Shown here piece by piece: positions 4,796-46,581 of a stretch of 64,000 nucleotides of DNA; positions within the stretch are counted from its first letter, which is position 1; every line of letters begins with the position of its first letter. Location of the stretch: positions 186,001 to 250,000 of the forward strand of contig CAJXLT010000003.1 in NCBI GenBank assembly GCA_913056365.1, in the 5' to 3' direction. This DNA comes from an uncultured Paenibacillaceae bacterium. Lineage in GTDB: Bacteria; Bacillota; Bacilli; Paenibacillales; K13. The notes beneath the pieces were generated by a model. The model ran no database searches. It saw only the letters and a list, made by a program, of their open reading frames with translations, and had not been told where the DNA came from. Both the position numbers and the translations under genes were made by a program.

Positions 4796-5023
4796 TTATC
4801 CCCTTCCGAATCCAATCCTCAATCCTCATACTGTGTACGTAAGTAACGTATATGTATATTCTACACTTCCTACTTGCACCTTAGAAAGCATTTCACCGAT
4901 AGGGCAACGTTCCTCTCTCGGCCTAATCACCATAATCATTATGTTAGATGACGCTCAGTCCGCGAATGAACGGGGTTAGTAATCGCAAGATGCAATGTGG
5001 TGATTATAGTTGTACTCTCCTTC

Positions 5024-5042
5024 CTTCTCTATGATAGAGAAG
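5024..5042. promoter_or_regulatory. Perfect 19-bp palindrome before the pectate-lyase gene
   Basis: CTTCTCTATGATAGAGAAG is perfectly self-complementary (9-bp arms around one base) and ends 22 bp before the ribosome site of the gene at 5079. It could be a repressor operator or a small leader hairpin; the sequence does not decide between them. Confidence 0.4.
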
Positions 5043-5078
5043 CGTATAAGTAATTACGTGAATGAAGGAGGATGGCAA

Positions 5079-8000: not shown

Positions 8001-10658
8001 TATGTAGGCTTCTTCACTGCTCGTGTGGCGGAGATCGTAGTCAGCGATATCGACTTCAAGGTGACGGCAGCGGCTACTGATCCGCCGAAGGTAGAACCGC
8101 CTGCGGAACCGGTAGATCCGACGTTAACGATTGCATCACTGGAGAAAACTTCTGAAGCCGATTATGAGCTGATCGTGCGCACGAATGTTGATGGCGTGGT
8201 CACGGTGAAGCAGGGACAGTCTCTCCTAGCAGAGGATCTGGCGGTCGAAGGAGGAACTCCGCTTCATGTACCGGCGGTTCTAGTGCCTGACAGTGCCAAT
8301 CACTTCAGTGTGTCCTTCCTGCCGGATGACACGCAGTATTTAACGTCCTATGATCGTATTGTCCGCAATTACACTGTAACGATGAAGCAATACGAGACGG
8401 ACGGCCATATCTATGCAGCACCGGATGGATCACCGGAAAGTGACGGTTCAGCGGAGAATCCATTGGATCTGGATACGGCTATCGATTATGTCTTGCCGGG
8501 TCAATCGATTATCTTGCTAGACGGCACTTATACGCGCGATCGTGCGTTGGACATTAAGAAATTCAACAGAGGTACGCCAGAAGCAAGGAAGTCTCTCGTC
8601 GCTGCGCCGGGCGCCAGACCGGTAATAGACTTCGACAGAGCCTCAGAAGGGGTGCTGTTGAGTGGCGATTATTGGCATATTAGAGGGATTGACTTCACGC
8701 GTTCTGCACCGAATACGAAAGGATTCACGGTAGGCGGCGATTCCAACATCGTGGAGCTGTGCCGCTTCTATGAGCATGGTGACACAGGGTTGCAGATTAG
8801 CCGTACCGACATTACCGAGACTAGAGAGGATTGGCCTTCACACAACTTGATTCTGAACAGCACCTCCTTCGACAATCGGGATCCGTCTGATAATAATGCT
8901 GACGGGTTCGCTGCGAAGCTGACCGTTGGCGAGGGCAATGTCTTCAGGGGCACGATTGCTCACAACAATATTGATGACGGTTGGGACTTGTATACGAAGG
9001 CGGGAACTGGAGCGATCGGAGCGGTCGTAATCGAGGACAGCATCGCTTATCATAACGGATTCCTGACGGATGGCACTGTAGGGGCTGGTGACAAAAATGG
9101 ATTTAAACTGGGCGGTGAAGGCATTCATGTTCCGCATGTCATTCGCAACAGTATTGCGTTCGGGAATGGTGCTGCCGGATTCACGAGCAACAGCAATCCA
9201 GGCGTCATGGTGGAGAGTGGTATCGCCTACGACAATGCGGGACGGAATCTGGACCTGTCTACCTATGACGGGATAGAGCCGGACTTTACCCTGAATGGAT
9301 TCGTCTCTTATCAGAAGGGTGAGGCGCTCAACGATCAGTATCCGCAAGCTCTGGCTTCGAGAGACAACTTCTTGTTCGATGGGACCCAGTCGGTGAACCG
9401 GTTAGGCGTTGCTCTGACAGATGACAACTTTGCATCCTTGGTGCCTGTATTGCCTTATGAACGGGATGAGCAAGGCAATATTGTGTGGGGAGAGTTCCTG
9501 AAGTTCACAGCGCCGACGGGAACGAGAAGGGGAAGCGGCGGAGCTGGTACGGTTGTGAATGAGGAACTAGTCGTCGTGAACGAATTGCAGGCGAGTGATG
9601 GGCTGATCACTGTGACGCTCTCGGAGGAAGAGAAGCAAGTGTGGCTTCCTGCCGATGCAGTAGCCCTCCATCGTGAGAATCGCTTGCAGATTGTCCGTGA
9701 TGATCTCATTGTCGAAATTCCAGGAGAAGTGCTGGAAGCGTTGAAGGCGCTTGTGACAGAGGATGAATTAGCAGATGCGCAGATTGCTATTGCAATGAAG
9801 ACGGTTGCCTCGGAGCAAGTGGCAGAGCTGTTGAACAAGGCTGCTGAGCGGAGCCAGGCAGAGTTGCGTGCAGCAGGCGCGATCTTCGATGTGAGCCTGG
9901 TGATGATCGATGAAGATGGCCGGCGTCAAGAGCTGGAAGCATTCCCTGAGAACATCAAACTTGCGTTCAACGTGCATCCTGACAGGAACGATGCGTTGTT
10001 AGGTGTCTACTATATAGCGGATGACGGCACACTGGAGTATGTCGGCGGTTATATGGAGGACGACTGGATGGCGGCAGAGGTGTCGCACTTCAGCTTATAC
10101 GCTGTATTGGAGTATGATAAGTCCTTCGCGGATGTGCCGGAAGCACATTGGGCAGCAGCAGCGATCAAGTACGCGGCTGCCAAGCAGATTGCGGCGGGGG
10201 TTACGCACACAGCGTTCGCGCCTGAGCGCGAAGTGTCTCGAGCTGAATTCGCCGCACTGTTGGCGAGAGCTTTGGGCTTGGAAGAAGCGGGGGCGATCGA
10301 ATTTGCCGACGTTGATGCTAACGATTGGTATGCGGCCGCTGTTGCAGCCGTGAGTGAAGCGGGCATTGTGTCTGGTCGGAGTGAAGCGGTATTCGCGCCA
10401 GACGCGGCTATTACTCGGGAAGAGATGGCTTCGATGATCGTGCGAGCGCATCGCTACCTGCAGGGAGAAGCTGCTGAAGCTGCGAGTCCGGTCTCCTATT
10501 ATGCCGATGCGTCTAGTATTAGTGGTTGGGCGCTGGATGATGTGGCGGCAGCGGTAGAGCTGGGCTTCATGCAGGGCAGAGGTGCGCAGATCTTCGTCCC
10601 TAAGGGGCTCGCCAACCGGGCAGAAAGCGTACAGGTCATTTATATGCTGCTGCAATGA
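5079..10658 (+). CDS. SLH-anchored multidomain pectate lyase, PL9-type
   Basis: 1859 residues. The ATG at 5079 is chosen because AAGGAGG (5065-5071) sits 7 nt upstream and a normal signal peptide follows (MVQAKRLI … VQA-ED). Order: two related domains of about 200 residues (38-248, 251-444), each with '…GKIAS…EGIxFYxxE…F.LSA…SFGLMxRD'; four Big-type Ig-like units (about 445-780); a third copy of the first domain (782-1000); a linker; a right-handed beta-helix (about 1109-1450); a regulatory-like segment; three SLH motifs (1681-1859). The helix carries NADGFAAKLTVGEGN and DDGWDLYTK, the calcium/catalytic signature region of PL9 lyases. It should cleave pectate outside the cell while bound to wall polymers through SLH. 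The PL9 assignment is from memory of the family. Confidence 0.85.
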   Translation: MVQAKRLICTTMAMLLMLPTMMLPVQAEDAGSPTSDMISVSGDWHGSVFGDVGGQDKITADNFHIVESAANTVAMRAANNRGKIASSSEGIALYYQEVAADRDFTLSATATVKSFDVNNQVSFGLTVRDAVVENLNTKVNLGNYLAVGPINVKDDVAKYTFARTVSTDVYGEESHSQVKPGEMVIESKPAPDRVYDLTIRKVGSTYIVTFGNEEPYVYEDFPFVGDSRYVGLYAARNTEVEFSNVALTVATDPTIGEWAFHRFGSNTGDEKNPAPVIHDDGSVSMIANGGKIASDNEGISFYSREIMPVDANFEISAEVVVDSFAADNNQKSFGLMLRDSLGEHGSSDTTTANYVLVGALDKVMKAAYKQTSQTKLEPFAEAALPGTGEVYDMSIRKSGNTYVVRIGDASETIQADGLFTDSLYAGLYAAREASVTFRNIEVKLDTRKVESVQVDATDMQTVYLIDEALNLEGLEVTANYSDGSSSVLAEGDYIVTGFDSAEAGANWVTVHHNGVTTKLKLTIQALTATELSVQYYPAKTSYYVGDTLDAAGLTVVAAYNDGYKVAEIGEELFTLQIDGVDVTDSYILHEPGTVTVTIRSTETPTTTTSFDLDVIDAEITKLEIRQAPEKTQYFIGEALDVDGLVVYAHYSDNEAVRLQRSDYTVSALDTSESGEQAVMISFKEETVAFTVNVKEKEVTGIQVTQYPQTTYQVGEAFDSDGLVVSKVYDNGDQVVLGNDAFTILAEGYNADTPGEYEVEIVPEDATLDSIILRVTVVEPREVEWKQIRFGQSIKDNQNVIDVRDDGIYVASLDGAGKVTGDHDGITFYYTEIDADAHNFVLSADIQVLQYAKSPHDGQEAFGMMARDAIGTDGDSGVFASNIAAIGGHSGGTKNDNGTQLFIRTGVESSDGAGSKGIQRQMLRNDKPDASNTHPAAPYRLTLAKTNSGYVGQLNDGEEAIFYEPDMLHVQDDKLYVGFFTARVAEIVVSDIDFKVTAAATDPPKVEPPAEPVDPTLTIASLEKTSEADYELIVRTNVDGVVTVKQGQSLLAEDLAVEGGTPLHVPAVLVPDSANHFSVSFLPDDTQYLTSYDRIVRNYTVTMKQYETDGHIYAAPDGSPESDGSAENPLDLDTAIDYVLPGQSIILLDGTYTRDRALDIKKFNRGTPEARKSLVAAPGARPVIDFDRASEGVLLSGDYWHIRGIDFTRSAPNTKGFTVGGDSNIVELCRFYEHGDTGLQISRTDITETREDWPSHNLILNSTSFDNRDPSDNNADGFAAKLTVGEGNVFRGTIAHNNIDDGWDLYTKAGTGAIGAVVIEDSIAYHNGFLTDGTVGAGDKNGFKLGGEGIHVPHVIRNSIAFGNGAAGFTSNSNPGVMVESGIAYDNAGRNLDLSTYDGIEPDFTLNGFVSYQKGEALNDQYPQALASRDNFLFDGTQSVNRLGVALTDDNFASLVPVLPYERDEQGNIVWGEFLKFTAPTGTRRGSGGAGTVVNEELVVVNELQASDGLITVTLSEEEKQVWLPADAVALHRENRLQIVRDDLIVEIPGEVLEALKALVTEDELADAQIAIAMKTVASEQVAELLNKAAERSQAELRAAGAIFDVSLVMIDEDGRRQELEAFPENIKLAFNVHPDRNDALLGVYYIADDGTLEYVGGYMEDDWMAAEVSHFSLYAVLEYDKSFADVPEAHWAAAAIKYAAAKQIAAGVTHTAFAPEREVSRAEFAALLARALGLEEAGAIEFADVDANDWYAAAVAAVSEAGIVSGRSEAVFAPDAAITREEMASMIVRAHRYLQGEAAEAASPVSYYADASSISGWALDDVAAAVELGFMQGRGAQIFVPKGLANRAESVQVIYMLLQ

Positions 10659-30100: not shown

Positions 30101-33100
30101 GTGAGAAAGTACTTATTCAGTCTAGCGATTTGTTGGCTTGCGCTCTTGATCGTACCGATGCCATCGGCAGAGGCTGACGAAATTGTCAGTATGAACGTAA
30201 GTGGTGGAGACAGCACAGGGTCTACGACCTATTTCAATGGTGGGCAAACCATTCAGGTGACAATCGAATTCGATGCGCCGGTCGCCTGTGCGAAAGAGGA
30301 CTCATACTTGCAGGTGCTGCAGGCGGAAGTGGATGGTGTTCCGCTTGAGATCCCGATGATCGATGCAGAGGAAGGCTTCGATACTTTCAAGACATTCGAA
30401 TACACGCTCCAGACAGGGGATCAGAACGGACAGCTTACCTTCATCGAATTCGACGGCTATTGCCAGGAAGAAGGCGGTGTGAGCGGTTATCAGGGCTATG
30501 ATGACCCGAACGATGCGGACAATATTGAGGAAGATATGGAAATCTTGAACGGTCAATACAACATCGTCATTGATACGTGGCAGATGCATGCAGACAGCAA
30601 TGCTGCTAAGACGCTGTTCAAGCCGGGCGAGGCGATCTCCTTCTATTTGTTTTTCCAGTATCATGAACTCGCGGTGACGACTCCTCCGACGATTATGATG
30701 AATACTGGCGGTGCGGCGACGTATCAAGGCATAGTCTATGAGCATCCGTATACGGAAACATTGATGGAATTTACCTATACCGTACGTGATGGCGATGATG
30801 TGTCTGATCTAGATATTGCCTCAATTACGGGAGGTAATGTGACGGACAATAGTGGTAATTCTGTAGACTTTCGCTTCCATGAGGGGCGGCGATTGGCGGA
30901 CAACGCATCGTTATATGCAGACGGCACGCCTCCCGTTGTAACCGCTGATCCAGCTGTGAATAACACGAACAAGCAAGGGCATCAGATTACACTGAGTGCA
31001 ACGGATCGGCCGGATCATGGCGCGGATGAGTATACGTTGTACTATTTGTGGAATACGAGCTCGTCTACACCTTCTGCGGGATCGGTAACAGGTGTAGGGG
31101 CACATGTAGGACAAGAAGCACCGCAGCCCGATGGACAGCCGACGGGAAGTTACTATCTGCACATCAGAGGGAGTGATGATCTGGGCAATGAGGACGTGAC
31201 GACATTCGGTCCGTATGCGTTCGACAATACACCGCCGACAGTGACGTTCTCTCCGAACAGCGGTACGTTCGCTGAACCGATTACAGTGGATATGTCAGCT
31301 GCCGATTCAATGGCTGGCGTGAAGTCGATCGCTTATCAATGGAAGGATACCGCAGGCGATCCTATAGAGGAGACAGGTGCTTTAGCTGAGGCAACGTTGC
31401 CTCTGAATCAAGGCGAGCATGTGCTGGTAGCGACGGTTGAGGATAACGCTGGCAATGTGGAGACCTATGAAAGCGGCGTACTCTTGCTCGATCAGACTGC
31501 TCCGACAGCGAGCTTCTCCTATACAGCTCCGACTGATGGGGAAGGTGAGCCTGTCCCCGTGCAGTCCGATGAAGTAACCGTGCAGCTTGCTGGCAGAAGC
31601 GGCGAAACAGTCGATGCTTATATGCAATGGACTGATGATGTGCAGACACCTGCTCGGGAAGACAGCAACTGGGTGAAGTTCGTTGATGGCAAGTCACTGC
31701 CGCACAATACCCAAGTGACAACACCGGAAGCAACCGGAACTTGGTATTTGCACGTGAAGACGGCGGATGATGTGCGCAATGTCGAACGATTCACGATGCA
31801 GGACGGCGTATGGCTGGACAATACGGAGCCGGTCGTTGCGCTCACTTTGGACGGGACGAACGGAAGCTTCCGGAAGGAAGCAAGTACACAGCTGCTAGTG
31901 GACGGCGGTACTTCGACCTTGGACACACATACGATCCGTTATCTGATCAGCGATCAGCCGACACCGGAAGGAGATCCGACAAGCTGGGCTTCGTCTGAAG
32001 ACGGTGCCTTCGAGTTAAGCGGTGTGTCGGGTGTGCGCTACATTCACTTGTATGTGACAGACCGTGCTGGTAATGCCGCTGTATTCACAAGTCAGTCGTT
32101 CCACCTTGATCACTTGCCGCCGACAGGCTCGGTCGCTTGGCAGCAGCCGCATACGAACGAGACAGCAGCACAAGCGATTGTAGCAGCGACAGACGATGCG
32201 AGCAGTGTGGAATATACGCATACGCTGGAAGAGGGTGTGTGGGAGGATGACAATTGGATTTCTCTCTCTGTACCGAACATTCCTGTGACGCTTGCGGATA
32301 TCGAGGGAGAGCAGCACATCTATGTCAAGTTCCGGGATGAAGCGGGCAATATGAGCGAGCCGGCTCAAGCTACCGTCATATATGACACTACCCCTCCGAT
32401 AGAAACAGGTGTCGCCTACAGTCCGGCGAGTTGGACGAGCGATACAGTGACTGCAACGGTGTATTATACCGATCATTATTCGCCAGATAGTTACGTACAG
32501 GAGACATTCGATGAGAACGGAGTATTTACTGTTTTGTTCCAGGATTTAGCAGGCAATACAGATAGCGCTGAGGTGACCATCGATAAGATTGAGCGAATCA
32601 AGCCAGAGGTGCAGTTCAGTGTGAACGGTTCGGATCACAGCAGTCAGACAGCGACAACGACCGTAACCGTTACGGATAATATTAGCGATCCGGACAACAT
32701 TGAGCTGTTCAGCACTTGGTCGCTAGACAGCGAGAATGTGCCTGACAGTTGGACGGCTATCGCTTCTGGCGATCCTGTCACGATGGATGAGGGTGACGGC
32801 GAGTATGTGCTGTGGGTGAAGGCTATGGATGAGGCTGGTAATACAGCTGCTGTACACAGTCAGCCGTTCTTGCTGGACAATACGCTGCCAAGCGGATCGT
32901 TTACGTACGATATTTCGAATCGAACGGCAATGCCAGTTACGGCTCGATTGCAAGTATCCGAATCGGTCGAAGTAACGAAGCCGATTGACGGATCGCGAAC
33001 GCATACGTTCTTGGAGAACGGTTCGTTCCTCTTCGAATTCGTAGATGAAGCCGGCAATGTTGGGACGGCAACCGCGACTGTTGACTGGATTGATGACAGT

Positions 33101-35212
33101 TTGCCAACAGCGCAAGTGACCGCGACACCGGATGATTGGACGAATGCTCCAGTCGATGTCCGCGTCAGTGTTCAGGGAGAGCCGCCGCGTGCGCTTAGCA
33201 ACTTCGAGACGCCTGCGGATGCGGAGCTGGTCTATGTGATTACGGAGGAGTATGGGGAAACAGCGGAACCTGTTGCGGGCGCAACGGTGACAGAGGCTGT
33301 ATACCGCTTCTCAACGAATGGCTCTCTTCGATTCACGATTACCGATTTGGAGACGGACATTCAAGCGCAATCGGAAGTGCAGATCGACCAGATCGATCAT
33401 GTTGCACCGACCGGCACATTGCGGTACAACTATTCGAATTGGACGCAGGAGGATGTGACAGTCACGCTTGAGGCTTCTGATGATCGGAGTGAAGTCACGG
33501 TCATCGGCTCCGATCAATACATCTTCACGGAGAACGGATCACATACGTTCCGATTCCGCGATGAAGCAGGGAATGAGGAAGCCTTAACAGCTACAGTGGA
33601 TTGGATCGACCGTGAGCCGCCAGAGGCGGACATTCGATACAGTACGGAGAGCTTGACGAATCAATCTGTGACCGCGTCTGTATACATGACCAATGAACGT
33701 GGACCCGTCACGATATTGAACAATGACGGATTGGATGAAGTCGTATTCGACGATAACGGCTCCTTCACGTTCCGGTTCGAGGATGCGGCAGGCAACCGCG
33801 GACAAGCGACCGCCAATGTGACTTGGATCGATAAGGAAGCGCCGACAGGCAGCCTGACATACAGCACGTTAGGCTGGACGCGGGAGAATGTGACAGTCAC
33901 GCTCGACATGTCGGACAATTCTGGGGTTGCGCCGACGTTAACGAGTGTTGGCGGCAACGAGCATGTCTTCACAGACAATGGGGAATTCACCTTCACATTC
34001 GTGGACGCCGCAGGCAATGAGTCGGCAATTACCGCTGTTGTGGATCGCATAGATAAGACGCCGCCGCAAGCGACGATTAGCTATTCGTCTACAGGAGCGA
34101 CGAACGCTGCTGTTCGGGCAAGCTTAGTGCCGAATGAGGCGGTTACCGTATTGAATAACGGCGGCAGTGCGTTCTACGACTTCGAAGCGAATGGATCGAT
34201 TACGTTCCAGCTTCGCGACCGAGCCGGCAATACGAGCGCGGTGACAGCGACCGTCGACCATATTGACCAGCAGGCACCAATCCCGACGATCACGTACGAT
34301 ATTACAGAACGTACGAATGCTGACGTGATTGCGACCGTATCGGCAGATGAGCCGTTCTATGTGTTGAATAACTATCAGAAGCCGCAGTATGTGTTCAGAG
34401 AGAATGGTAGCTTCTCCTTCATCGTGCAGGACTTAGCCGGCAATACGGCAGAGATAGAGGCTGCCGTTGACTATATAGATAAGTCGAAGGCGACGACTAC
34501 GCTTAATTATAGTGACACCGAACCGACTAGAGACGATGTCACCGTCCATGTCGATGCTGACAGGCCGCTCACGTATTTGAACAACAATGGGGAATCGACG
34601 GTTACCTTCACGCGTAACGGCTTCACCTATTTGCAAGCGCAGGATGAACTGGGCAATGATTATTTGATTCTAATCGAAGTGACGAATATCGACCGGGAAG
34701 CACCACAGCTTGCCTACTTGCAAGGCGAGAATCTCCCGATTCCGCTCGGCAGTCCTGTCAATCCGATTGGCGATGTTGTCGTGACGGATAATCTCGATGG
34801 GGTGTTGACGGACGAGACGACTGTCAGTCACGACATCGATCCGAATACGATCGGTGAATACTCGGTGCAATACACCGTGACCGATACGGCAGGTAATACG
34901 ATGCGTGTCGATCGGGCAGCACAGGTATTCACGACGGATGAATTGACCGTATATATCAACAGCGAGAGCACGCCGAATGGAGAAGCACTCGTACGCGGCA
35001 ATGATCTTATCGTGGAGTACTTCGGCGAGCAGGGTGAGACTGTTGTGAAGTGGGCGCGCGGCAAGCTGGATAAAGGGGCGTTCAAAACAAGCGGACAACT
35101 ACTCGCTGAGAGCGAAATCTCGTTCGACAAGCAAGACTATTACACGTTCCTCGTACAGGATCAAGAACGGAACTATCGTCTCGTTCATGTGTATGTGATC
35201 CCAAGCTATTGA
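30101..35212 (+). CDS. Giant secreted protein of Ig-like repeats
   Basis: 1703 residues from a GTG with GGAGGT upstream. Signal peptide (LFSLAICWLALLIVP … AEA-DE). The N-terminal 260 residues are a distinct region; then come Ig-like domains joined by 'DNTPP/DxxPPTG' linkers. From about nt 32395 to 34690 at least eight shorter units recur, each with a start like YSxxxxTNxxVTAxL, a middle FxENGSFTFxFxDxAGN and an end ATVDxID. The last 170 residues are a DUF5011/HYR-like Ig (VVVTDNLDGVLTDE) plus a tail. No SLH, LPXTG or lipobox is seen, so it is free or held by a partner. It is 30 bp before the SLH giant at 35243 and thus co-transcribed. Confidence 0.82.
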   Translation: MRKYLFSLAICWLALLIVPMPSAEADEIVSMNVSGGDSTGSTTYFNGGQTIQVTIEFDAPVACAKEDSYLQVLQAEVDGVPLEIPMIDAEEGFDTFKTFEYTLQTGDQNGQLTFIEFDGYCQEEGGVSGYQGYDDPNDADNIEEDMEILNGQYNIVIDTWQMHADSNAAKTLFKPGEAISFYLFFQYHELAVTTPPTIMMNTGGAATYQGIVYEHPYTETLMEFTYTVRDGDDVSDLDIASITGGNVTDNSGNSVDFRFHEGRRLADNASLYADGTPPVVTADPAVNNTNKQGHQITLSATDRPDHGADEYTLYYLWNTSSSTPSAGSVTGVGAHVGQEAPQPDGQPTGSYYLHIRGSDDLGNEDVTTFGPYAFDNTPPTVTFSPNSGTFAEPITVDMSAADSMAGVKSIAYQWKDTAGDPIEETGALAEATLPLNQGEHVLVATVEDNAGNVETYESGVLLLDQTAPTASFSYTAPTDGEGEPVPVQSDEVTVQLAGRSGETVDAYMQWTDDVQTPAREDSNWVKFVDGKSLPHNTQVTTPEATGTWYLHVKTADDVRNVERFTMQDGVWLDNTEPVVALTLDGTNGSFRKEASTQLLVDGGTSTLDTHTIRYLISDQPTPEGDPTSWASSEDGAFELSGVSGVRYIHLYVTDRAGNAAVFTSQSFHLDHLPPTGSVAWQQPHTNETAAQAIVAATDDASSVEYTHTLEEGVWEDDNWISLSVPNIPVTLADIEGEQHIYVKFRDEAGNMSEPAQATVIYDTTPPIETGVAYSPASWTSDTVTATVYYTDHYSPDSYVQETFDENGVFTVLFQDLAGNTDSAEVTIDKIERIKPEVQFSVNGSDHSSQTATTTVTVTDNISDPDNIELFSTWSLDSENVPDSWTAIASGDPVTMDEGDGEYVLWVKAMDEAGNTAAVHSQPFLLDNTLPSGSFTYDISNRTAMPVTARLQVSESVEVTKPIDGSRTHTFLENGSFLFEFVDEAGNVGTATATVDWIDDSLPTAQVTATPDDWTNAPVDVRVSVQGEPPRALSNFETPADAELVYVITEEYGETAEPVAGATVTEAVYRFSTNGSLRFTITDLETDIQAQSEVQIDQIDHVAPTGTLRYNYSNWTQEDVTVTLEASDDRSEVTVIGSDQYIFTENGSHTFRFRDEAGNEEALTATVDWIDREPPEADIRYSTESLTNQSVTASVYMTNERGPVTILNNDGLDEVVFDDNGSFTFRFEDAAGNRGQATANVTWIDKEAPTGSLTYSTLGWTRENVTVTLDMSDNSGVAPTLTSVGGNEHVFTDNGEFTFTFVDAAGNESAITAVVDRIDKTPPQATISYSSTGATNAAVRASLVPNEAVTVLNNGGSAFYDFEANGSITFQLRDRAGNTSAVTATVDHIDQQAPIPTITYDITERTNADVIATVSADEPFYVLNNYQKPQYVFRENGSFSFIVQDLAGNTAEIEAAVDYIDKSKATTTLNYSDTEPTRDDVTVHVDADRPLTYLNNNGESTVTFTRNGFTYLQAQDELGNDYLILIEVTNIDREAPQLAYLQGENLPIPLGSPVNPIGDVVVTDNLDGVLTDETTVSHDIDPNTIGEYSVQYTVTDTAGNTMRVDRAAQVFTTDELTVYINSESTPNGEALVRGNDLIVEYFGEQGETVVKWARGKLDKGAFKTSGQLLAESEISFDKQDYYTFLVQDQERNYRLVHVYVIPSY

Positions 35213-35242: not shown

Positions 35243-38200
35243 ATGATTAAAAAACTCGTATTTGCATGGTTAAGTGTATTGTTGGTCGTCACTTCGATGC
35301 CGCACTCGGTTTCCGCTCTTGCGGAATCCGAGCAGATCGAGCATGTGGGCAACGGATATATGGATGTATATGTCGATAGAGAGAGCGGCAGATTCGTGAT
35401 CGAGACGGAGGAAGGTCATCCGCTGAAGGCAGGCGATGACGACAAGTCGCTGCTGTTCGCCGGAGATCAGCCAGACACTTCCTTCACGACATTCCGCATT
35501 AATGGCGAGGATTATATCTTCGGCAATGATTACGGATTTCTCGGCATGGACAGTTATTTCTCCAAGGAGCCGAGAAGCCAAGGACTCATGAATCAGTCAG
35601 TCTGGCATGTAGAAGGACTGGATATCGTCCAGACGTTAGAATTGGTAACGGATCGGGACAATCCGAATATCGGTAATGTGAAAATCTCTTACGTGGTCGA
35701 GAATACTTCGAACGAGTCTGTACAGGTAGGCAGCCGCATCTTGCTGGATACGATGCTTGGCGCAGAGGATGCTTCGCCTATCTCACTATCGGGCAGCAGC
35801 CAGTATGTGCGTACAGAGAGAGAGCTGAATGGCGGACAAATCCCTTATTATTGGCGCGCTGTGGATGATCCGCTAGTACCGCGTGTAATGGCGTACGGAT
35901 TCCTCAGAGGCTGGGGGAGCTTAGAGCCCAATCGTATGACGATCGCGCATTGGGATGGCATATCGGCGACGAAGTGGGATTATGAGACGGATGGGGGTCT
36001 CGACTTCACAACGAGCCGCAATCCGTACGGGACACCGGACAGCGCAGTGGCGTTGTATTGGAATCCCAATCGGCTTGCGCCCGGTGAGCAGGCGGTCTAC
36101 GAGACGTATTACGGGCTCGGCAGCTTCCTGACCGCAGAGAAGCAGGCGAAGTTCAACGCACAGCTGTTCGGTCCACGGGAGCTTGCAGTCAATGAGACGC
36201 GGGACGATTACGTGGAGGATACGTTCGATATTCGGTTGGAGCTGGATAACAGCTTGAGCGAATCCGAGACGCTCCATCAAGTTCAGGTGCAGCTGGGTCT
36301 GCCGGCAGAGCTGGAGCTGGTCGACGGTGCAGATGCGATTACCGAGATTAGTCAAGTGCCGGTGAATGGTACACATACGGTAACCTGGCGCGTGAAGGCC
36401 AAGCCGCAGATGAATTACAAGGCCGCGCGCTATTGGGTGAGCATACAAGAGCCGGGAAGCGAGCAGGTGATGCTCTCCCGCTACATCGTTATGCCGGCGT
36501 TGTCCGGCATGCAGCCGAATGTACAGGTGCTCGACGTGCTTCCGAACAAGAAGTTCATCGAGGATGACAAGCGCGATCTGTACTTGAAGGGCAGAGGCTT
36601 CGAGGCGTTGCGCGGCAACTTCGACTTCGAGATGCACGCAGTTCGCCATCGCGACGGCAAGAGCTATCCTATTAGCAATTACACGGTGTCCGATGATCAG
36701 CAGATGATTGTCCAGTTAGACAGCATGTGGGCGAACGGCATTCTGGAAACCGGCGCATACACGCTAAGCATCGAGGCAGGGGAATACGGCAGCTTCGAGA
36801 AGACATTCGAGCTAACGCGTGAAGCGCAATACCAATCGAGAGACTACGGCATCTTGACTGTAGTGAAGGATAATGAGACGTATAGCATCATGCCTGTGCA
36901 AGATGAGCAAGCACTGCGCGAATTGGAGGACAGGTTCGACGAAGTGCTGCTGCATATTCGCGGTGACATTCGCGAGCTGTCCGCAGACGGGACGACATTA
37001 TATGAGATTCAACCAGGCGCTACGATGAATGCCGTCGTTCTGTTCGAGGAAAGCGTATCTGTCGGACAACGCTTCGATACAGAGCAGGTGCTTGTAGCGC
37101 AGAAGAAGCCGCGGGACTTGTCTCACGGTGATGATTATGTGGAGATTGCCGGGACAGGGGTGCTGTCGATCCCGAACTTCCCATTCGTGCAAGGGGATTT
37201 CACGATTGAGCTTGAGGACGGCAACGATTATGCGCTGGATGCAGATGAGGATGCAGACCAGCAGTCGATTGTTATCGAATGGGACCAGTTGAAGTGGCGC
37301 AATCTTATTCATCAGATGGCGAATTTCCCTGTCACGATTAAGCAGGCGATTATTGGCGACCGCACGGTTTCGTTCGGCGGATCGCTTGCTCTCGACTTCA
37401 CCGGAGCTCCGGAAGAGGAAGAAGAGGAAGATGAGGAAGTGAATCCTGATCTGAAGAAGCCGAAGGAGGAGACAGAAGCGGACGATGAGGACGATCCGTT
37501 CAAGCTGCGGTTAGCGCTCGACGAGGCTCGCTTCGGCTTGAACAGCAAGGACCGCTTCGGCTTTATCGGCTTGCGCGCAGAAGGAGAAATTGGCGTTCCC
37601 GAGAATCTGATGCCGGGCATGGATCTCGGCGCGGAAGCGCGCTTGCTAGTTGACACGCTGGATCGTATCTACGAGCTGGAAGCGGATGTTGAATTCCAAG
37701 TTATCGAGATGCACGGTCTGTTCACGATCCGCTTCACGGAAAGCTCGATTCCGATACTAGACAACTTCGAATTTGCGGTCGGCAATGAGCCGGGCATACC
37801 GCTTGTGCCGCCGTTTGTCGTTGCCTATATTACGCAAGGGGGCGGAGGCTTCCGCAATCTGTACGACACCGCAATGGGCAACTTTGAAGTGCTGCCTCCG
37901 TTGAAGCTGATTGTCATTGGCGGGATGGATATTGCCAAGATCATCTCCGCGGAGGACATGCGGCTGGAAGCATCGCTGCGCGGTATTGAGTTTGAAGGCG
38001 GCTTCGAGGTCATGCAGATTGATATATTCGAACGGGTCTATGGCAGTTTGCTAGTTGAGGATTCGTATCGGCCCACTGTCGAAGCTCTACTCGGGGCGGA
38101 TTTGAACGTCATAGACGTGATCAAAGGGAACGTATACGCTACCGTATCCTATGATCCGGATCTGCGCGGCATTATGGGACCGATCTACATCGCAGGCGGC

Positions 38201-41200
38201 GGTTCCGTAGGGCTGTATATACCGGATGATATTAAGTTCATCGGCGGTGAGCAGCTGGCTGGGGTGGAAGCTGAGATCAGCACGTCCAAGGTGTACGCCA
38301 AGGCGGAAGTAATCAAAATTCCGTTCAGCGTGACGTATCATTGGGGCGACAACAAGCCAGAGGTGGACGTCTTCAGTCTGACAGCGGCTGACGGCAGCGG
38401 TCCGATCGGGCTTGCCAAGCAGAAGCTGTATGCGCATCCGGACGATAGGGGTGCTTCTGGCGTGATGACCTACGGCTCCAACATTCGTGAGGTGTCTGCC
38501 ATTGTCTCCGGCGATACGGCATCTTCTCGTGATCGGTATGCGGTCAAGATCGCCAGTCCGGGATACGCGTATTCGGTCGATGTGGCTGATATGAAGTATG
38601 CGCTGATGGAATTCGCCTACAGAGGCGAAGTGCCGGAGCTGGAAGTCCGGGACCCGCATGGCAATTTGTATGAGCTAGTGGAAGGCGAGAATTACCGGAT
38701 TCAGGACATCCCTGCTGATGTCAGTGCCTCCGGTACCCATGAGCAGCGGGTGTATGTCTCTGCAGTTGACCCCATTGTTGGCGAGTGGACGATTCAATCG
38801 AATCAGGAGCTGACCGGAAGATTGCTGGAAGCCTTGCCTATTCCAGAATTGACTTCTGTCGAAGTAGAGCAAACTGGTGATCATGAAGCGCAGGTGCATT
38901 GGCAGACGGCAAATGCGGAAGGCCAGCAAGTTGCGCTGTATATAACAGAGAATGCAGAGACGGATTCCGGTCGCTTGTTGTTGGATGGACTGGATGCGAC
39001 ATCCGGCAGCACGACGATAGCTCTTCCGGATACGATGCCATCCGGCAGCTATCATATCAAGGCTGTACTGTATGATGAAGAGACGAACTATGACAGTCTA
39101 TATAGCGCGGCAGGCTTGAACATTCATAATATGTATGAGCCGGCAGCACCCGATCAAGCAGAGGTTGCCCCGATCGGCAACGGCTACATGCAAGTGCAAT
39201 GGAGCTACCCGTCAGGTCAATCCGTTGACGGTTTCATGCTTCAGGTGCTGGATGAGGCCGGTCAGCCGGTAGAACAGGCAGGCTTGATTGAAGTAGAAGG
39301 AGAGCGCAGAACTGCGAATATAGGCGGTTCGTATGAGGACTTGGCAACGGGTGAGCAGATTGGCATGCTGCCAGGCGCATCCTACCGTATCGCGATTACA
39401 CCTTATCGAGAGATCGATGGCAACAAGGTATACGGCACTTCTACCGTTACAGACGCAGCACTGCTGCCCGAACCAGCACCTGCTGAAGTGGAGCTGGCTG
39501 TTGAAGGTAATGACGGCAACTTGGCCGTGACAGAGGACGCGGAGGGCAATCCGCTCTACTTGTCCACTGAATCGGATGTGCAGCTGTCGCTGCAAGCGGA
39601 TCAAGACATCGCGTCGACGATTCGTGTCAACGGTGATCGACTGGCAGAACAGAGCGGAGCCGCGTGGGATCAGTCGGTGCCGCTTCGCGAAGGCATGAAT
39701 ATGATCGAGGTTACGGCGGTGAATGAGCATGGCGATCTAACCGTGAGTGGTGTGCGGGTGAGACTCGATTCGGCGGCACCGGATCTGAAGATCGAATCAC
39801 CGGCCCCGTCTATATGGAGTTCTGAACCAGAAATTCGTGTGAAGGGCGTTACGGAGCCAGGCGCTGTTGTGACGGTCAATGGCGAACCGATCACAGTCGA
39901 TGGGGACGGATTGTTCGATACGATGCTGTCGGTCGATGGATATTTGAGCCGTTCGTTCACGATTGTTGCACAGGATGAAGCGGGCAATCGGACGGCATAC
40001 GTATCAGAAGTATTGAACGAGTCTGTCGGATCATTCGAACGGGTGGAAATTCGTCCATCCACAACCCCGTCCATGTTCCGAGCAAGTGCTGCAGTTGCGA
40101 CGGATGAAGACAGGGAACAATATCCGGTATCATTGGATCAGCCTTATGCCTTCGAGCTGGTAGGGATCGATGAAGCTAGTAATGAATCTGTGATCGACCC
40201 TGCGAATGTAGAATGGGAGTTCCTTGTAGGCAATAACTTGGCTGAACTGTCGGAGCAAGGCGTGTTGCAGGCTTCCTACGAAGGCGAGATGATCGTGAAG
40301 GCGGCGTATCAGGTTTCCACGGAATTTGCCTTCGAAGATACGATCTTCGTACAGGCGACAGCCGGTAGCGGCGGAGAAGACAGTATCGATCCCGGCGAGT
40401 ATGAGGATTGGTATGATCCGGATGCGCCGGAGCTCGATGATGGACGCAATCCGCGTGATGATGACGACAATGATTCCGATACGGGAGCAGTGCCAGGTGA
40501 CGGTGAAGATGCGATCGATCGGCTGCTGGAAGACATCCTCCAGTCTATTATCGAGCAGGAGCAGGAAGCCGAGTTCCTAACGTATGCGGAGTTGTCAGAG
40601 CAGGAGCGCACGGTCATATCGATAGATGAACGCGCCCGCTTGACCGTATTTCCGCAGCTATTCGGTGAGCAGACGGGTATTGGTGTAGGCAGAATTCGGA
40701 GTGCTAGCCGGTACTTCGCAGGCACACCGTACAGGCTGATCGGCGACATCTATGAACTGAAGACGAACAAGCCTGTGCTGTTCGAGCAGGAGCCAGAGCT
40801 CCGCATTCGATTTGCGCTTGAAGAGGTAGGAGATGCAGAGAATCTCGGCATCTACTGGTACAATGATCGCATGCAGCGCTGGGAGTATGCAGGGGGCGAG
40901 CTGAATCCGCTGCAAGGTACAGTTACGGCCAAGCTGCCGCACTTCAGCAAGTATGCATTGTTGGAACATCCGAACATGCGCCGCTTTGTGGACATGCAAG
41001 GGCGGTGGTCGGAGCTTGCGGTGAATCGTCTCACATCGATCGGTGTTATAGACGGTATGCAGCTGCCGCAAGGCTGGAGCTTCGCACCGGAGCAGACGAT
41101 TACGCGCGAAGCGTTCATCAAGCTGCTCGTTGCGGCAAGCGGCGCTCAGATGGATGAAGCGGCAGACTTGCCGAAGCAGTATGCAGACCGCGCTGAGGCC

Positions 41201-41569
41201 GGTGTTTGGGCGAACGCTTACTTGACAGCAGCGCTTGAGAAGGGCTGGCTAGCTGGCACAGCGAAGGATGGTCAAGCGTATCTGGAGCCGAAGCGACCGA
41301 TTACTAGGGCCGAAGCTGCGGCGATGATTGCGCGGATGCTTGACGGGCTGCAAGCTGCAGACAGTTCCGCGGCAAGCTTCAAGGATGAGCAGCAACTGCC
41401 TGCATGGGCGGCAGACGCGATTCGTCGTCTGCACAATGCTGGCATTCTGAACGGCTACGAAGACGGCACATTCCGACCGCAGCAAGCGATTACGCGCGAG
41501 GAGGCTGCTGTCATGGTGCTTGGTATACTGGATTGGCTGTACGAAGAAGGCAAATCCTTATCAGAATAA
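35243..41569 (+). CDS. Giant SLH-anchored surface protein
   Basis: 2108 residues; GGGAGAAATCGG before the ATG. Signal peptide (to about VSA-LA). A long N-terminal region (about 30-420) resembles a beta-sandwich; an IPT-like part follows (about 425-530). A strongly acidic stretch (about 724-752, EEEEEEDEE … DDEDD) separates it from a large central region of unknown fold. FN3-like (from about 1200) and Ig-like units (VTVNGEPITVDGDGLFD) come next, then an Asp-rich segment (about 1735-1755) and three SLH motifs (about 1914-2100). It should be bound to the cell wall. Together with the unanchored repeat protein before it, it may build a surface fibre or adhesin. Terminator at 41621. Confidence 0.82.
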   Translation: MIKKLVFAWLSVLLVVTSMPHSVSALAESEQIEHVGNGYMDVYVDRESGRFVIETEEGHPLKAGDDDKSLLFAGDQPDTSFTTFRINGEDYIFGNDYGFLGMDSYFSKEPRSQGLMNQSVWHVEGLDIVQTLELVTDRDNPNIGNVKISYVVENTSNESVQVGSRILLDTMLGAEDASPISLSGSSQYVRTERELNGGQIPYYWRAVDDPLVPRVMAYGFLRGWGSLEPNRMTIAHWDGISATKWDYETDGGLDFTTSRNPYGTPDSAVALYWNPNRLAPGEQAVYETYYGLGSFLTAEKQAKFNAQLFGPRELAVNETRDDYVEDTFDIRLELDNSLSESETLHQVQVQLGLPAELELVDGADAITEISQVPVNGTHTVTWRVKAKPQMNYKAARYWVSIQEPGSEQVMLSRYIVMPALSGMQPNVQVLDVLPNKKFIEDDKRDLYLKGRGFEALRGNFDFEMHAVRHRDGKSYPISNYTVSDDQQMIVQLDSMWANGILETGAYTLSIEAGEYGSFEKTFELTREAQYQSRDYGILTVVKDNETYSIMPVQDEQALRELEDRFDEVLLHIRGDIRELSADGTTLYEIQPGATMNAVVLFEESVSVGQRFDTEQVLVAQKKPRDLSHGDDYVEIAGTGVLSIPNFPFVQGDFTIELEDGNDYALDADEDADQQSIVIEWDQLKWRNLIHQMANFPVTIKQAIIGDRTVSFGGSLALDFTGAPEEEEEEDEEVNPDLKKPKEETEADDEDDPFKLRLALDEARFGLNSKDRFGFIGLRAEGEIGVPENLMPGMDLGAEARLLVDTLDRIYELEADVEFQVIEMHGLFTIRFTESSIPILDNFEFAVGNEPGIPLVPPFVVAYITQGGGGFRNLYDTAMGNFEVLPPLKLIVIGGMDIAKIISAEDMRLEASLRGIEFEGGFEVMQIDIFERVYGSLLVEDSYRPTVEALLGADLNVIDVIKGNVYATVSYDPDLRGIMGPIYIAGGGSVGLYIPDDIKFIGGEQLAGVEAEISTSKVYAKAEVIKIPFSVTYHWGDNKPEVDVFSLTAADGSGPIGLAKQKLYAHPDDRGASGVMTYGSNIREVSAIVSGDTASSRDRYAVKIASPGYAYSVDVADMKYALMEFAYRGEVPELEVRDPHGNLYELVEGENYRIQDIPADVSASGTHEQRVYVSAVDPIVGEWTIQSNQELTGRLLEALPIPELTSVEVEQTGDHEAQVHWQTANAEGQQVALYITENAETDSGRLLLDGLDATSGSTTIALPDTMPSGSYHIKAVLYDEETNYDSLYSAAGLNIHNMYEPAAPDQAEVAPIGNGYMQVQWSYPSGQSVDGFMLQVLDEAGQPVEQAGLIEVEGERRTANIGGSYEDLATGEQIGMLPGASYRIAITPYREIDGNKVYGTSTVTDAALLPEPAPAEVELAVEGNDGNLAVTEDAEGNPLYLSTESDVQLSLQADQDIASTIRVNGDRLAEQSGAAWDQSVPLREGMNMIEVTAVNEHGDLTVSGVRVRLDSAAPDLKIESPAPSIWSSEPEIRVKGVTEPGAVVTVNGEPITVDGDGLFDTMLSVDGYLSRSFTIVAQDEAGNRTAYVSEVLNESVGSFERVEIRPSTTPSMFRASAAVATDEDREQYPVSLDQPYAFELVGIDEASNESVIDPANVEWEFLVGNNLAELSEQGVLQASYEGEMIVKAAYQVSTEFAFEDTIFVQATAGSGGEDSIDPGEYEDWYDPDAPELDDGRNPRDDDDNDSDTGAVPGDGEDAIDRLLEDILQSIIEQEQEAEFLTYAELSEQERTVISIDERARLTVFPQLFGEQTGIGVGRIRSASRYFAGTPYRLIGDIYELKTNKPVLFEQEPELRIRFALEEVGDAENLGIYWYNDRMQRWEYAGGELNPLQGTVTAKLPHFSKYALLEHPNMRRFVDMQGRWSELAVNRLTSIGVIDGMQLPQGWSFAPEQTITREAFIKLLVAASGAQMDEAADLPKQYADRAEAGVWANAYLTAALEKGWLAGTAKDGQAYLEPKRPITRAEAAAMIARMLDGLQAADSSAASFKDEQQLPAWAADAIRRLHNAGILNGYEDGTFRPQQAITREEAAVMVLGILDWLYEEGKSLSE

Positions 41570-43537: not shown

Positions 43538-43604
43538 GCGCAGTCGAGCATCACGCTTGCATAGAAACTGCGATGTAGGAGTAAGGAATAGGAGGAATGG
43601 AAAG

Positions 43605-43946
43605 ATGAAGAAGATCGAAGATGAAACACAATTTGAACAAGTGATCCAAGGCGAGCAGCCAGTCGTCGTTGTCTTCAAGACGACATGGTGTCCGGACTGC
43701 CACTACATTGACCCATTCATGGATGATGTGATTCGCAAATACGAGGGTCAGTTGGAATTCTTGCACGTAGACCGGGATGAACTGCCGGATGTGTGCGAGC
43801 GCCACAACATACTTGGCATCCCGAGCTTCGTCGTATTCAAGCAAGGTCAGGAGCTTGTCCGCTTCGTCAGCAAGCTGCGCAAGACGAGGGAAGAGATCGA
43901 GCAGTTTCTCGACCGTGCTGTTCAAGTCGCGGCAGCGATGGCTTGA
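43605..43946 (+). CDS. Thioredoxin family protein (WCPDC)
   Basis: 113 residues; AGGAGGAATGGAAAG before the ATG. Thioredoxin fold with active site TTWCPDCHYID (C about residues 30 and 33), the cis-proline loop GIPSFVVF, and no signal peptide, so it works in the cytosol. CPDC instead of CGPC, like B. subtilis YtpP-type or bacillithiol-linked thioredoxins, suggests a specialised reductant or de-bacillithiolase; this is by analogy. It lies 67 bp after the mutarotase-like gene. No terminator is seen; a repeat element follows. Confidence 0.88.
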   Translation: MKKIEDETQFEQVIQGEQPVVVVFKTTWCPDCHYIDPFMDDVIRKYEGQLEFLHVDRDELPDVCERHNILGIPSFVVFKQGQELVRFVSKLRKTREEIEQFLDRAVQVAAAMA

Positions 43947-44033: not shown

Positions 44034-44291
44034 TGAGATAGCGGAACTATGTGGTTCTATTGCGACTAGCAAGCGAAGTTTGAACAAGGTAAGGGAACAA
44101 ATTAGTCTTATTAGCTGGATTCAATAGGCGTGAGCACGGACTACCAGCTAGTAAGACCACGTATTTCCGCTAATTACCTCTGGCTGCACCGTCACTGCGA
44201 AATTAGACCACTTTCTTCCGCAAATACTCCCGTCTCGCGCCACACATACGAATAAGAGTACCTTCTCCCGCTACGCGCCTAGCAAAGCTCA
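44034..44291. repeat. Palindromic intergenic element, copy 3 (AGCGGAA type, extra arm)
   Basis: Left arms at 44040 (AGCGGAACTATGTGGTTCTA) and about 44090 (AAGGGAACAAATTAGTCTTA); right arms ending at 44170 (TATTTCCGC), 44221 (TTCTTCCGC) and 44271 (TTCTCCCGCT), each about 50 bp apart. GTCTTATTAGCTGG (44105) pairs with CCAGCTAGTAAGAC. It is a near copy of the element at 46375 plus one extra 51-bp unit. 43947-44033 and 44292-44560 hold no supported gene. Confidence 0.8.
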
Positions 44292-44560
44292 TTCGATCCT
44301 TGTGGGGGCACTCGCAACATATCTCACAACACTATACTTCCCAATCGCAAAGCTCACCCACCACATGTAGTGCGTCCCGCATTACTGCTCGTATCATCCA
44401 TCCCACCGCAGATATCAGTAGTACCACTTGCATACCGCTCGCATCACCATTCTCCCAATTCCCAATTCGCAGTGCCGCCCACCACGCGATGCCTGCAGCG
44501 CATCTCGCAAATACCGCTCTCAAACCTAGGCATCAAGCTAGACGAAGCAGCTGTTCGTTG

Positions 44561-45445
44561 CTAGTAAGGCGAGGGAATGTCTAGCACAGTTAACTGCAGC
44601 TGACGAATGCGATCAGGATTGGAAACCAAATCAATCTCGGTGATTGTTCCAGACTTGATCGTGAAGGCAAGGACGTAGAGCAGCGTTCCGCGAGGCGCTA
44701 CGATCACACCTAATGTTCCGTTCACAAGTGCTGGTTGTGCAGAAGTGTGCGCACGTCCCGAAATCTGATTGGCGAGAGCAAGCGCTCCTCTAGATTCCTT
44801 CGGCTCGCCTGTCTCACGGTCGTCCCGCAATACGACATTCGGATCAAGCAACGTTAATAAGCTCTCTAGCCGTCCGGCGTGTGCCGCTGCGAGAAATGCA
44901 TCGACAATCTTCCGTTGTCGTTCCAGATTGGCGTCAGACGGAACTTGCCCGCCGCGTACCCGACGGCGCGCCCGGCTGGCAAGCTGCCGGGTTGCGGCTT
45001 CCGATTTCCCCACGATAAGGGCAATCTCGGAGAAGGACATTGCAAATATATCATGCAATATGAATGAAACACGTTCGGCTGGATTCAGATTATCGAGCAC
45101 GACCAACAGGGCAACGCCAATAGAATCAGCCAGTATAGCTTCTTGTTCGGGGTCCCCGCGGCTATCATCGCTCGCGTTGGACTCGGGGAACTGTGCCTCC
45201 AGCGGTTCCTCTCCTCTTGATTTGCGAGATCGCAGCACATCGAGACATACACGTGAGACCACTGTAGTCAGCCATCCGCCCAGATTGTCGATGTCATCTG
45301 CATTCGAACGGACTAGACGCAGCCACGATTCCTGTACGGCATCCTCTGCCTCGCTCCATGAACCTAGCATACGATAAGCAACCGACTTAAGGTGATCCCG
45401 ATGTGCTTCAAACTGCTTCGCCAATTGATCCTGAGTAGTCATCAT
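44561..45445 (-). CDS. ECF41-type sigma factor with fused SnoaL-like domain
   Basis: 294 residues; AGAGGGATT before ATG ATG on the minus strand. Region 2 (KSVAYRMLGSWSEAEDAVQESWLRL) and region 4 (LNPAERVSFILHDIFAMSFSEIALIVGKSEAATRQLASRARRRV region) are followed by a C-terminal SnoaL/NTF2-like domain of about 115 residues ending NPDRIRQLQ. This plan is that of ECF41 sigma factors, where the extra domain replaces an anti-sigma factor. The usual carboxymuconolactone-decarboxylase partner gene is absent; a divergent azoreductase takes its place. Both this gene and the azoreductase have a TGTCAC-N16-CGTC promoter, so it should activate itself and its neighbour. Confidence 0.88.
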   Translation of the reverse strand: MMTTQDQLAKQFEAHRDHLKSVAYRMLGSWSEAEDAVQESWLRLVRSNADDIDNLGGWLTTVVSRVCLDVLRSRKSRGEEPLEAQFPESNASDDSRGDPEQEAILADSIGVALLVVLDNLNPAERVSFILHDIFAMSFSEIALIVGKSEAATRQLASRARRRVRGGQVPSDANLERQRKIVDAFLAAAHAGRLESLLTLLDPNVVLRDDRETGEPKESRGALALANQISGRAHTSAQPALVNGTLGVIVAPRGTLLYVLAFTIKSGTITEIDLVSNPDRIRQLQLTVLDIPSPY

Positions 45446-45511
45446 CTTTAATCCCTCTTTAATTCTATAATGGGGTATCTCTATCCTACCATGAATCCCC
45501 CTTACTAGGAT

Positions 45512-45538
45512 GACGTATGCAATGACGTCGATGTGACA
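45512..45538 (-). promoter_or_regulatory. ECF41-type promoter of the sigma factor gene
   Basis: On the minus strand TGTCACA (complement of 45532-45538), 16 bp, CGTC (complement of 45512-45515): an exact match to the ECF41 promoter pattern as I know it. It lies 67 bp before the sigma factor start, pointing to autoregulation. Confidence 0.75.
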
Positions 45539-45583
45539 ATTCCCTACCTACTTGTTGAATTCCGTATGTCGTTGTTATCGGTC

Positions 45584-45610
45584 TGTCACGTATTGCCGAT
45601 CCCGACCGTC
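45584..45610 (+). promoter_or_regulatory. ECF41-type promoter of the azoreductase gene
   Basis: TGTCACG (45584-45590), 16 bp, CGTC (45607-45610); one base off TGTCACA. It lies 63 bp before the azoreductase ATG and faces away from the matching promoter at 45512. Confidence 0.72.
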
Positions 45611-45673
45611 ATCATAGTGAATGGTTGATTCAAGGTTTCAGCCAAACCACAATGAAAGGATGGTCCTCTCAAT

Positions 45674-46315
45674 ATGACGACGGTATTATGGATTACAGCG
45701 AACCCGCACGATCACGACACCTCTTATGGTATGGCGGTAGGTCAACAATTTGTACAAGCATACCTTTCCGCAAATCCGGATCATGAAGTGATCCACCTTG
45801 ATCTGTTTGCTATGAACGTTCCACAGCTAGATGCGGATGTATTCCGTGCTTGGAGAAAGTTGGAGGGAGGGGCTTCATTCGCAACATTATCCGAAGTAGA
45901 GCAGGGGAAGGTCGGACGCATTGGCGAACTTGTGGATCAGTTTGTGTCTGCGGACAAATATGTATTCGTCACACCGATCTGGAATTATTCCTATCCACCC
46001 GTTATGAAGGCGTACATCGATGCAATCTGCATAGTTGGGAAAACATTCAAGTACATGCCGGATATCGGTCGGGTCGGTTTGCTGAAGGACAAAAAAGCGG
46101 TGCATATTCAAGCGAGCGGAAGCAGGCTGTCACCGGGCTCCCAAGATGCGGAGCTTGAAATGGGACATCGGCATATGAAGGTCATTGCGGAGTTTATGGG
46201 AATTCCCAGTCTGGCAAGTATTTTCGTGGAAGGTATGGCTGAGTTGCCGGACCAAGCACAGGTCATTAAGGAAAAAGCGTTGCAGCAGGCGCGTGAGCTT
46301 GCCTTGACCTTCTAG
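45674..46315 (+). CDS. FMN-dependent NADH-azoreductase
   Basis: 213 residues; GAAAGGATGG lies about 10 nt before the ATG. Flavodoxin-like quinone/azo reductase of the AzoR family: FMN phosphate-binding start (TANPHDHDTSYGMAVGQQF), the flavin loop VTPIWNYSYPPVMKAYIDAI, and SGSRLSPG. It reduces azo compounds and quinones by two electrons in the cytosol and may protect against electrophile or quinone stress. It is divergent from the ECF41 sigma factor and behind a matching promoter. An 8-bp hairpin (46346-46371, no T-run) follows the stop. Confidence 0.9.
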   Translation: MTTVLWITANPHDHDTSYGMAVGQQFVQAYLSANPDHEVIHLDLFAMNVPQLDADVFRAWRKLEGGASFATLSEVEQGKVGRIGELVDQFVSADKYVFVTPIWNYSYPPVMKAYIDAICIVGKTFKYMPDIGRVGLLKDKKAVHIQASGSRLSPGSQDAELEMGHRHMKVIAEFMGIPSLASIFVEGMAELPDQAQVIKEKALQQARELALTF

Positions 46316-46374
46316 GTAAGCAGAAGTGTAGACGATTGGGGGTGGCTACCGCGCTGTCCGAATCGCGGTAGGGA

Positions 46375-46581
46375 TGAGATAGCGGAACTATGTGGTTCTA
46401 TTGTGACTAGAAAGCGAAGTTTGAACAAGGTAAGGGAACAAACTGGTCTTATTGGCTGGATTCGATGGGCGCGAACACGGATTGCAGGCTAATAGGACCA
46501 CGTATTCCCGCTAATTGCCCCTTACGCGCCACACACACGATATAAGTCCACTTTCTCCCGTTGTGCGCCTAGCAAAGCTCA
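46375..46581. repeat. Palindromic intergenic element, copy 4 (AGCGGAA type)
   Basis: Near-identical to 44034-44291 from TGAGATAGCGGAACTATGTGG through CGCGCCTAGCAAAGCTCA at the other end, but 51 bp shorter: left arms at 46381 and 46431, right arms ending near 46511 and 46562. 46582-46703 shows weak further resemblance to 44344-44400 and no gene. Confidence 0.8.

Follow-up and report, generated by a model that had tools for sequence, protein, structure and literature searches.

The repeats A and B of the window, the 64-kb stretch of DNA analysed here (contig 3, 186001-250000, of a 4.65-Mb genome, G000, in 34 contigs), belong to a widespread family of short interspersed intergenic repeats with an anatomy that we did not find in the literature searched. 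Each element is built from copies of a 25-nt arm, AATAGCGGAAnTAnnTGGTCTTATT in the L sense and its reverse complement in the R sense, and the usual layout is L(25)-26-L(25)-37-R(25)-26-R(25), 189 bp in which the arms point to the centre and stand 51/62/51 nt apart, centre to centre. We give about an even chance to the reading that these elements are phased protein-binding arrays at gene ends, with an architectural job like that of the REP/BIME/RIB elements; both the binding protein and the function are putative.

Element A (44034..44291, plus strand, 258 nt) lies between the convergent 3' ends of a thioredoxin-domain gene (43557..43946, plus strand; PF00085, E 8e-21), which it follows, and an ECF41-type sigma factor gene (44561..45445, minus strand). 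Its five arms run L-L-R-R-R, with L arms on the plus strand and R arms on the minus strand: L1 (44037..44061; 25.8 bits on the arm profile), L2 (44088..44112; 21.6 bits, 51 nt from L1), R1 (44150..44174; 28.8 bits, 62 nt from L2), R2 (44201..44225; 25.0 bits) and a weak R3 (44251..44275; 12.6 bits, 50 nt from R2). Element B (46375..46581, plus strand, 207 nt) lies between the convergent 3' ends of an azoreductase gene (45674..46315, plus strand) and a spore germination GerAC-type gene, and has four arms in the order L-L-R-R on the corresponding strands: L1 (46378..46402; 25.8 bits), L2 (46429..46453; 26.0 bits), R1 (46491..46515; 29.5 bits) and R2 (46541..46565; 21.0 bits). The profile was built from the 54 inner arms of 27 genome-wide G000 elements, window arms included; eight of the nine window arms score 21-30 bits on it and the ninth 12.6, while no site beyond A and B in the 64-kb window scores above 10.1. 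The sigma factor and azoreductase genes, for which we keep the names given in the initial annotation, are not part of either element; relatives of the sigma factor in Paenibacillus records are 63-65% identical to it. Upstream of the elements the window also holds three very long plus-strand open frames, at 5010-10658 (1882 aa), 30101-35212 (1703 aa) and 35243-41569 (2108 aa).

A and B had been described in the initial annotation as direct repeats differing by one module, and this description stands: the two match over stretches of 149 nt (88%) and 40 nt (83%), or by blastn over 187 nt (83.5%, E about 1e-50), share the start TGAGATAGCGGAACTATGTGG and, with one mismatch in B, the end CGCGCCTAGCAAAGCTCA, and differ in length by exactly 51 nt (258 vs 207). 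The profile places the three right arms of A and the two of B within a few bases of the end points first proposed; the two left arms of each copy, which are the reverse complement of the right-arm motif, had been overlooked. By alignment, B is A minus one R arm and one spacer, the absent module lying at about R2 of A, which supports the proposed gain or loss of whole modules (51 nt). Because they have in common their spacers as well, which hardly any other pair in the genome does, and about 15 nt of the left flank, A and B are a duplicated pair, and may stem from one past event of integration or duplication around them.

The same anatomy recurs throughout the genome. The pattern GGTCTTATT-N37-AATAAGACC, with up to three mismatches, matched 27 times in G000 as compared to once for a backwards control. 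Among 25 distinct G000 elements, the outer spacing on the left is 51 nt for 18 of 21, and that on the right is 51 nt for 14 of 20 and 50 nt for six; in the remaining elements an outer arm is unrecognisable or has been cut by an insertion sequence. Scanning 400 kb of G000 not picked for elements with the arm profile revealed 18 sites over threshold (six in shuffled sequence of equal length) and four clusters, all of them L-L-R-R at 51/61-62/50-51 and one of them bearing an additional site that overlaps. The initial annotation had stated beforehand that arms out of a fixed pitch in other copies would refute its module reading. In the sister species G001, a single-arm pattern that assumes no spacing gave 97 matches against 54 for the backwards control, about half of the 97 being background by that measure, and 28 of the 29 arm pairs less than 400 nt apart lie at 50-52, 58, 109 or 160 nt, so the module reading withstands this check. 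Pairs at 50-52 nt have the same sense, pairs at 58, 109 and 160 nt the opposite sense, and none of the 29 has the order R-L. Fifteen of 20 G001 loci that we fetched have at least three arms in LLRR register; three show two L arms near a contig end, another shows an L-R pair, likewise at a contig end, and one (L221) has no arm at the threshold used.

The spacers keep their length and little else. The covariation and spacer statistics were drawn from 25 of the 27 G000 elements, all but window copy B and one copy on contig 28. Information content is about 0 bits at spacer positions and reaches 1.8 bits in the arms, and the spacers of different elements are unrelated, with a mean of 9.86 of 37 positions identical. 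The arms are weakly palindromic in this genus and perfect palindromes in some other genera. On contig 28 (L014:1-1000) we also observed a second arm class, TAACGGAACTnACAGnCnCTTA, in LLRR layout with 50/74/50 between arm landmarks, not far from two nearly identical canonical elements, and contigs 28 and 23 (L014, L015) have a GTGGT-rich minisatellite between elements close to their ends.

Spacers of fixed length and free sequence, together with arms that act as separate sites about five and six turns apart, would fit protein binding on one face of the DNA. In the explanation that we propose, each element would be an array of sites, normally four, each 25 bp long and pseudo-palindromic, which one sequence-specific DNA-binding protein would recognise, probably as a dimer. 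Sites 51 and 62 bp apart, about 5 and 6 helical turns, would share one helix face and could be gathered into one compact complex, an argument that rests on these distances being close to 4.9 and 5.9 turns at 10.5 bp per turn. Such an array, placed in intergenic DNA and usually downstream of at least one gene, would be held by selection on its arms and spacing; its most likely role would be architectural, with a nucleoprotein block at the ends of genes serving to mark or insulate units of transcription or supercoiling, and its 51-bp modules may be gained or lost through recombination between arms.

Selfish leftovers and RNA hairpins are the usual explanations for short intergenic repeats, and the initial annotation had called A and B RNA-like. 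Were the elements transcribed as a terminator, an mRNA-end stabiliser or a small RNA folded by pairing of left with right arms, variable arm positions under selected pairing should match better within than between elements. They do not: L2-R1 pairing is 16.6 of 25 within elements and 17.5 between them (below permuted, p 0.002, for which the joint mismatch limit of the element search may be the cause), L1-R2 pairing is 17.7 of 25 and 17.65, and positive covariation is absent for all four arm combinations in the 25 G000 elements, so that the RNA-like label is not supported. Element A does fold better than 200 shuffles (z -5.0, plus strand, 150 nt), but it does so because L and R share one consensus, and copy B folds more weakly (z -2.1) and is unstable on the minus strand (z -0.4). 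Terminator-like sites and promoters are absent from A and B, and fixed lengths would be needless for RNA loops. With no excess pairing within the 25 elements and no Rfam match in the window or at elements of 12 loci from other genera, we rejected a structured RNA family and consider a transcribed RNA structure of any of these kinds improbable.

We then turn to the location of the elements. None of the 27 G000 elements overlaps a called gene. For 20 of them the orientation of the flanking genes could be determined, and 13 lie between tandem, seven between convergent and none between divergent genes; the baseline, G000 gaps of at least 200 nt in 400 kb, comprises 62 tandem, 11 convergent and 21 divergent. 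When G000 and G001 elements were pooled (19 tandem, 13 convergent, 1 divergent) and compared with this baseline by Fisher tests, convergent gaps were enriched (p 0.0013) and divergent gaps depleted (p 0.014), with genes called by a simple hexamer model in place of a standard gene finder and without those elements that miss a called gene on one side (7 of 27 in G000, 3 of 16 in G001). We considered and rejected a pathway common to the neighbours, ten neighbouring proteins being of unrelated families.

Element positions are conserved between the two species. At least 13 of 20 G001 loci adjoin the orthologue of a G000 gene that has an element nearby, the thioredoxin gene of A included; this is a lower bound, since the G000 side of the comparison consisted mostly of stretches chosen for elements plus the unselected 400 kb. 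Six of the 20 loci were unusable, five because the fetched DNA held no matching flank and L221 because it has no recognised element. Three G001 loci have their orthologue within the unselected 400 kb of G000, and an element stands there in two of them; at the third, L210, there is no element near. Across 14 orthologous element pairs (two of them in one locus), identity is 67.6% in the inner arms, 38.6% in the 37-nt spacer and 31.8% in the 26-nt spacers, as compared to 62.2%, 27.0% and 25.9% in non-orthologous pairs (permutation p 0.0004, <0.0002 and 0.001, respectively), the arm identity being inflated by the choice of pairs with recognisable arms in both species. The residual spacer identity indicates common descent of the orthologous elements, and the slower change of arms than of spacers indicates, with the same caveat on arm selection, constraint on the arms.

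These comparisons also bear on the suggestion, made in the initial annotation, that A and B frame the ECF41-azoreductase locus and enable its movement or deletion by recombination. The two elements are indeed direct repeats of each other, spacers included, and in G001 the orthologous thioredoxin gene is followed by a single element whose far side is an acyltransferase (identified by eye from the translation) and not the ECF41-azoreductase pair. However, the same gene pair occurs without elements in two other genomes: in Paenibacillus contaminans the genes are adjacent (L092; 65 and 70% identical, no element in the 12.9 kb read), and elsewhere in G001 they lie close together (L231; 63 and 60% identical, no element in the 3.8 kb read). 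The initial annotation had named such genomes, with the locus and without flanking copies, as what would refute its suggestion, and the elements therefore do not define a movable locus. Moreover, the other elements almost all stand alone and enclose no locus, and we regard the framing of a mobile gene pair as highly improbable. An extra gene of AhpD-type appearance, judged by eye, separates the ECF41 and azoreductase genes at L231 and is absent from the window.

Insertion sequences interrupt the elements at defined positions. End A of one insertion sequence, which from the look of its ends may be IS256-like, is present in 14 copies in G000, at or near contig ends. In ten of these 14 ends the nearest arm starts 53 nt (six ends) or 42-43 nt (four ends) before a fixed point, and the one insertion that could be read on both sides has an 8-nt duplication inside a 26-nt spacer. 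One copy of end A, at the start of G000 contig 25 (L148), lies outside the family, beside another palindrome, GAATTAGTGA...TCACTAATTC. Insertion sequence B is present in G001, with 16 ends, and absent from G000. Of these ends, 14 border on precisely 17 nt of an arm, with scores that all exceed the 99th-percentile value for random flanks (7.2), one of them barely (7.4). Each of the seven insertions of this sequence with both sides available carries a 9-nt duplication, and in six of the seven, the seventh being the exception, joining the two sides gives a full arm, cut 8-9-8 with its central 9 bp duplicated. The 25-bp arm thus behaves as a symmetric unit, and a transposase treats it as one. The family also brings to light two insertion sequences whose natural targets are defined to the base. 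Insertion at fixed distances from the arms in both species is also what would be expected if insertion sequences kept the elements as landing sites, without any host job, but a landing site has no need of four phased arms and would place no selection on unoccupied elements, and insertion sequence B is absent from G000, where the same arms are kept nonetheless. Of all the alternatives, we find this one the hardest to credit.

The family extends unevenly beyond the genus. Searching 392 genomes of the order with the N37 pattern at up to two mismatches gave 19 copies in one species of the genus and 17 in the other (control 0); 61 of the 392 genomes were matched, most of them once and at control level, and higher counts were found elsewhere in G087 (11, control 0), G376 (5), G118 (4), G145 (4) and G144 (3). 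A shorter pattern, CTTATT-N37-AATAAG, had at least one match in 125 of 398 genomes of the class, mostly at chance level, with a clear excess in three genomes from a single genus (15, 20 and 25 against 0-1 in the control) and seven matches each against 0 in G519 and G671, which belong to two further families. When gaps of 33-41 nt were allowed, G376 gave 57 matches (control 4), and among the 50 matches listed the gap is 37 nt in 42, 36 in six, 38 in one and 34 in one; it is 37 nt in 7/7 matches in G671 and 7/10 in G519. Paenibacillus contaminans, with eight matches at gaps of 33-41 nt, none of them at 37, and six in the control, seems to be without the family. In other genera the four-arm layout and spacing are kept and the arm sequences differ (for example, TAACGGACnnnnnnGnCCTTATT), and in some genomes the arms are perfect 25-nt palindromes whose spacing alternates between 51 and 62 nt. 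Four loci of other genera (L033, L025, L048 and L049) contain tandem arrays, probably expanded by recombination, in which the unit measures about 113-115 nt and the 25-nt arms are perfect or near-perfect palindromes. Element A matched no plasmid or phage at E 1e-3; among viral contigs a single exact match of the central pattern (L264), inspected by eye, was taken as chance.

Some of this distribution would suit a non-autonomous mobile element, MITE-like or REPIN-like, in which a transposase binds the arms, the transposition complex fixes the spacing, and old insertions have come to rest at gene ends. In G376, groups of separate loci have near-identical central parts, G087 and G671 contain local near-identical copies, copy number varies widely among genera, and duplicated pairs occur both in the window and on contig 28. 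The variable copy number, the G376 groups, which resemble mobile repeats, and the duplication of A and B likewise count against the phased-array reading. Within G000, however, the unrelated spacers speak against recent spread, the two duplicated pairs aside; conserved positions and arms that decay more slowly than spacers are not expected of neutral old insertions; and the Y1 transposase RAYT (PF01797) is absent from both G000 and G001, while present in G376 and G090. The term mobile, as used in the initial annotation, accordingly finds no support in this genus, where element positions are conserved between species, and we hold a mobile origin to be possible but rather unlikely. Spacer length kept without sequence, the absence of arm covariation, and the persistence of position and arms point instead to DNA architecture under selection. 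Following the phased-array reading, we tentatively suggest, at somewhat less than an even chance, that the family represents an as yet unnamed class of chromosome-organising sites in Bacilli: a helix-phased four-site array with a dedicated putative protein whose preference has diverged between families, constant in geometry, located at orthologous gene ends, and a homing target of unrelated insertion sequences.

No prior description of such elements in Paenibacillales was found in the open-access literature, although an earlier one elsewhere is possible, and the word Paenibacillus does not occur in the text of PMC3733652, PMC2267715 or PMC10969869. Among known repeats, a CRISPR array was rejected because the arms are degenerate, half of them are inverted, and there are at most a few per element. 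The bcr1 repeat of Bacillus cereus and other MITEs are alike in being intergenic repeats of 100-200 bp in Bacilli (PMC3733652, PMC2267715), but a MITE has terminal inverted repeats, a target duplication and copies that are alike throughout, and the copies in this genus are not so alike: the G000 spacers are unrelated, although near-identical groups do occur in G376. The BOX elements of Streptococcus, as portrayed in PMC3049150, are similarly modular, with units of about 50 nt gained or lost whole; BOX modules, however, are conserved over their full length, as compared to 25 of 51 nt here, and the boxA-(boxB)n-boxC arrangement of conserved modules was rejected as a match, since here the arms alone are conserved and in LLRR order. 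REPIN/RAYT systems share a central unit of two inverted arms and a spacer, whereas our elements have four arms, spacers that are unrelated between copies, and no accompanying RAYT gene in the two species of this genus.

The closest likeness is to the REP/BIME/RIB (RIP) elements of enterobacteria, which are short intergenic palindromic modules, in direct and inverted arrangement at the 3' ends of transcription units, with many copies per genome and a role as insertion-sequence targets; their binding by gyrase and IHF is cited in PMC2267715. The anatomy differs in several respects: firstly, the arm sequence is another one, and the GTAG or CGTC tag that marks one unit end in the two REP super-families of PMC3733652 is missing from the arm consensus AATAGCGGAAnTAnnTGGTCTTATT; secondly, the arms do not form strong hairpins here; thirdly, the 26/37/26 LLRR geometry is rigid, the spacer sequence is unconserved, and the hosts are of a different bacterial class. 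In the unit itself a likeness is possible: REP/BIME units are intergenic palindromes of 20-40 nt in both orders, and the arms here are 25 nt long, in LLRR order, in elements that overlap a called gene in 0 of 27 cases, weakly palindromic in this genus and perfectly so in some others. According to PMC1525189, REP sequences are likewise chosen by insertion sequences as targets, in other hosts; here one insertion sequence enters at the dyad of the arm, with a 9-bp duplication, and another in the 26-nt spacer. By analogy, the elements would work most like REP/BIME/RIB, being intergenic, located at gene ends, modular and targeted by insertion sequences. Were the predicted protein to be found, the family would constitute a Gram-positive counterpart of REP/BIME and RIB, with a rigid and testable geometry.
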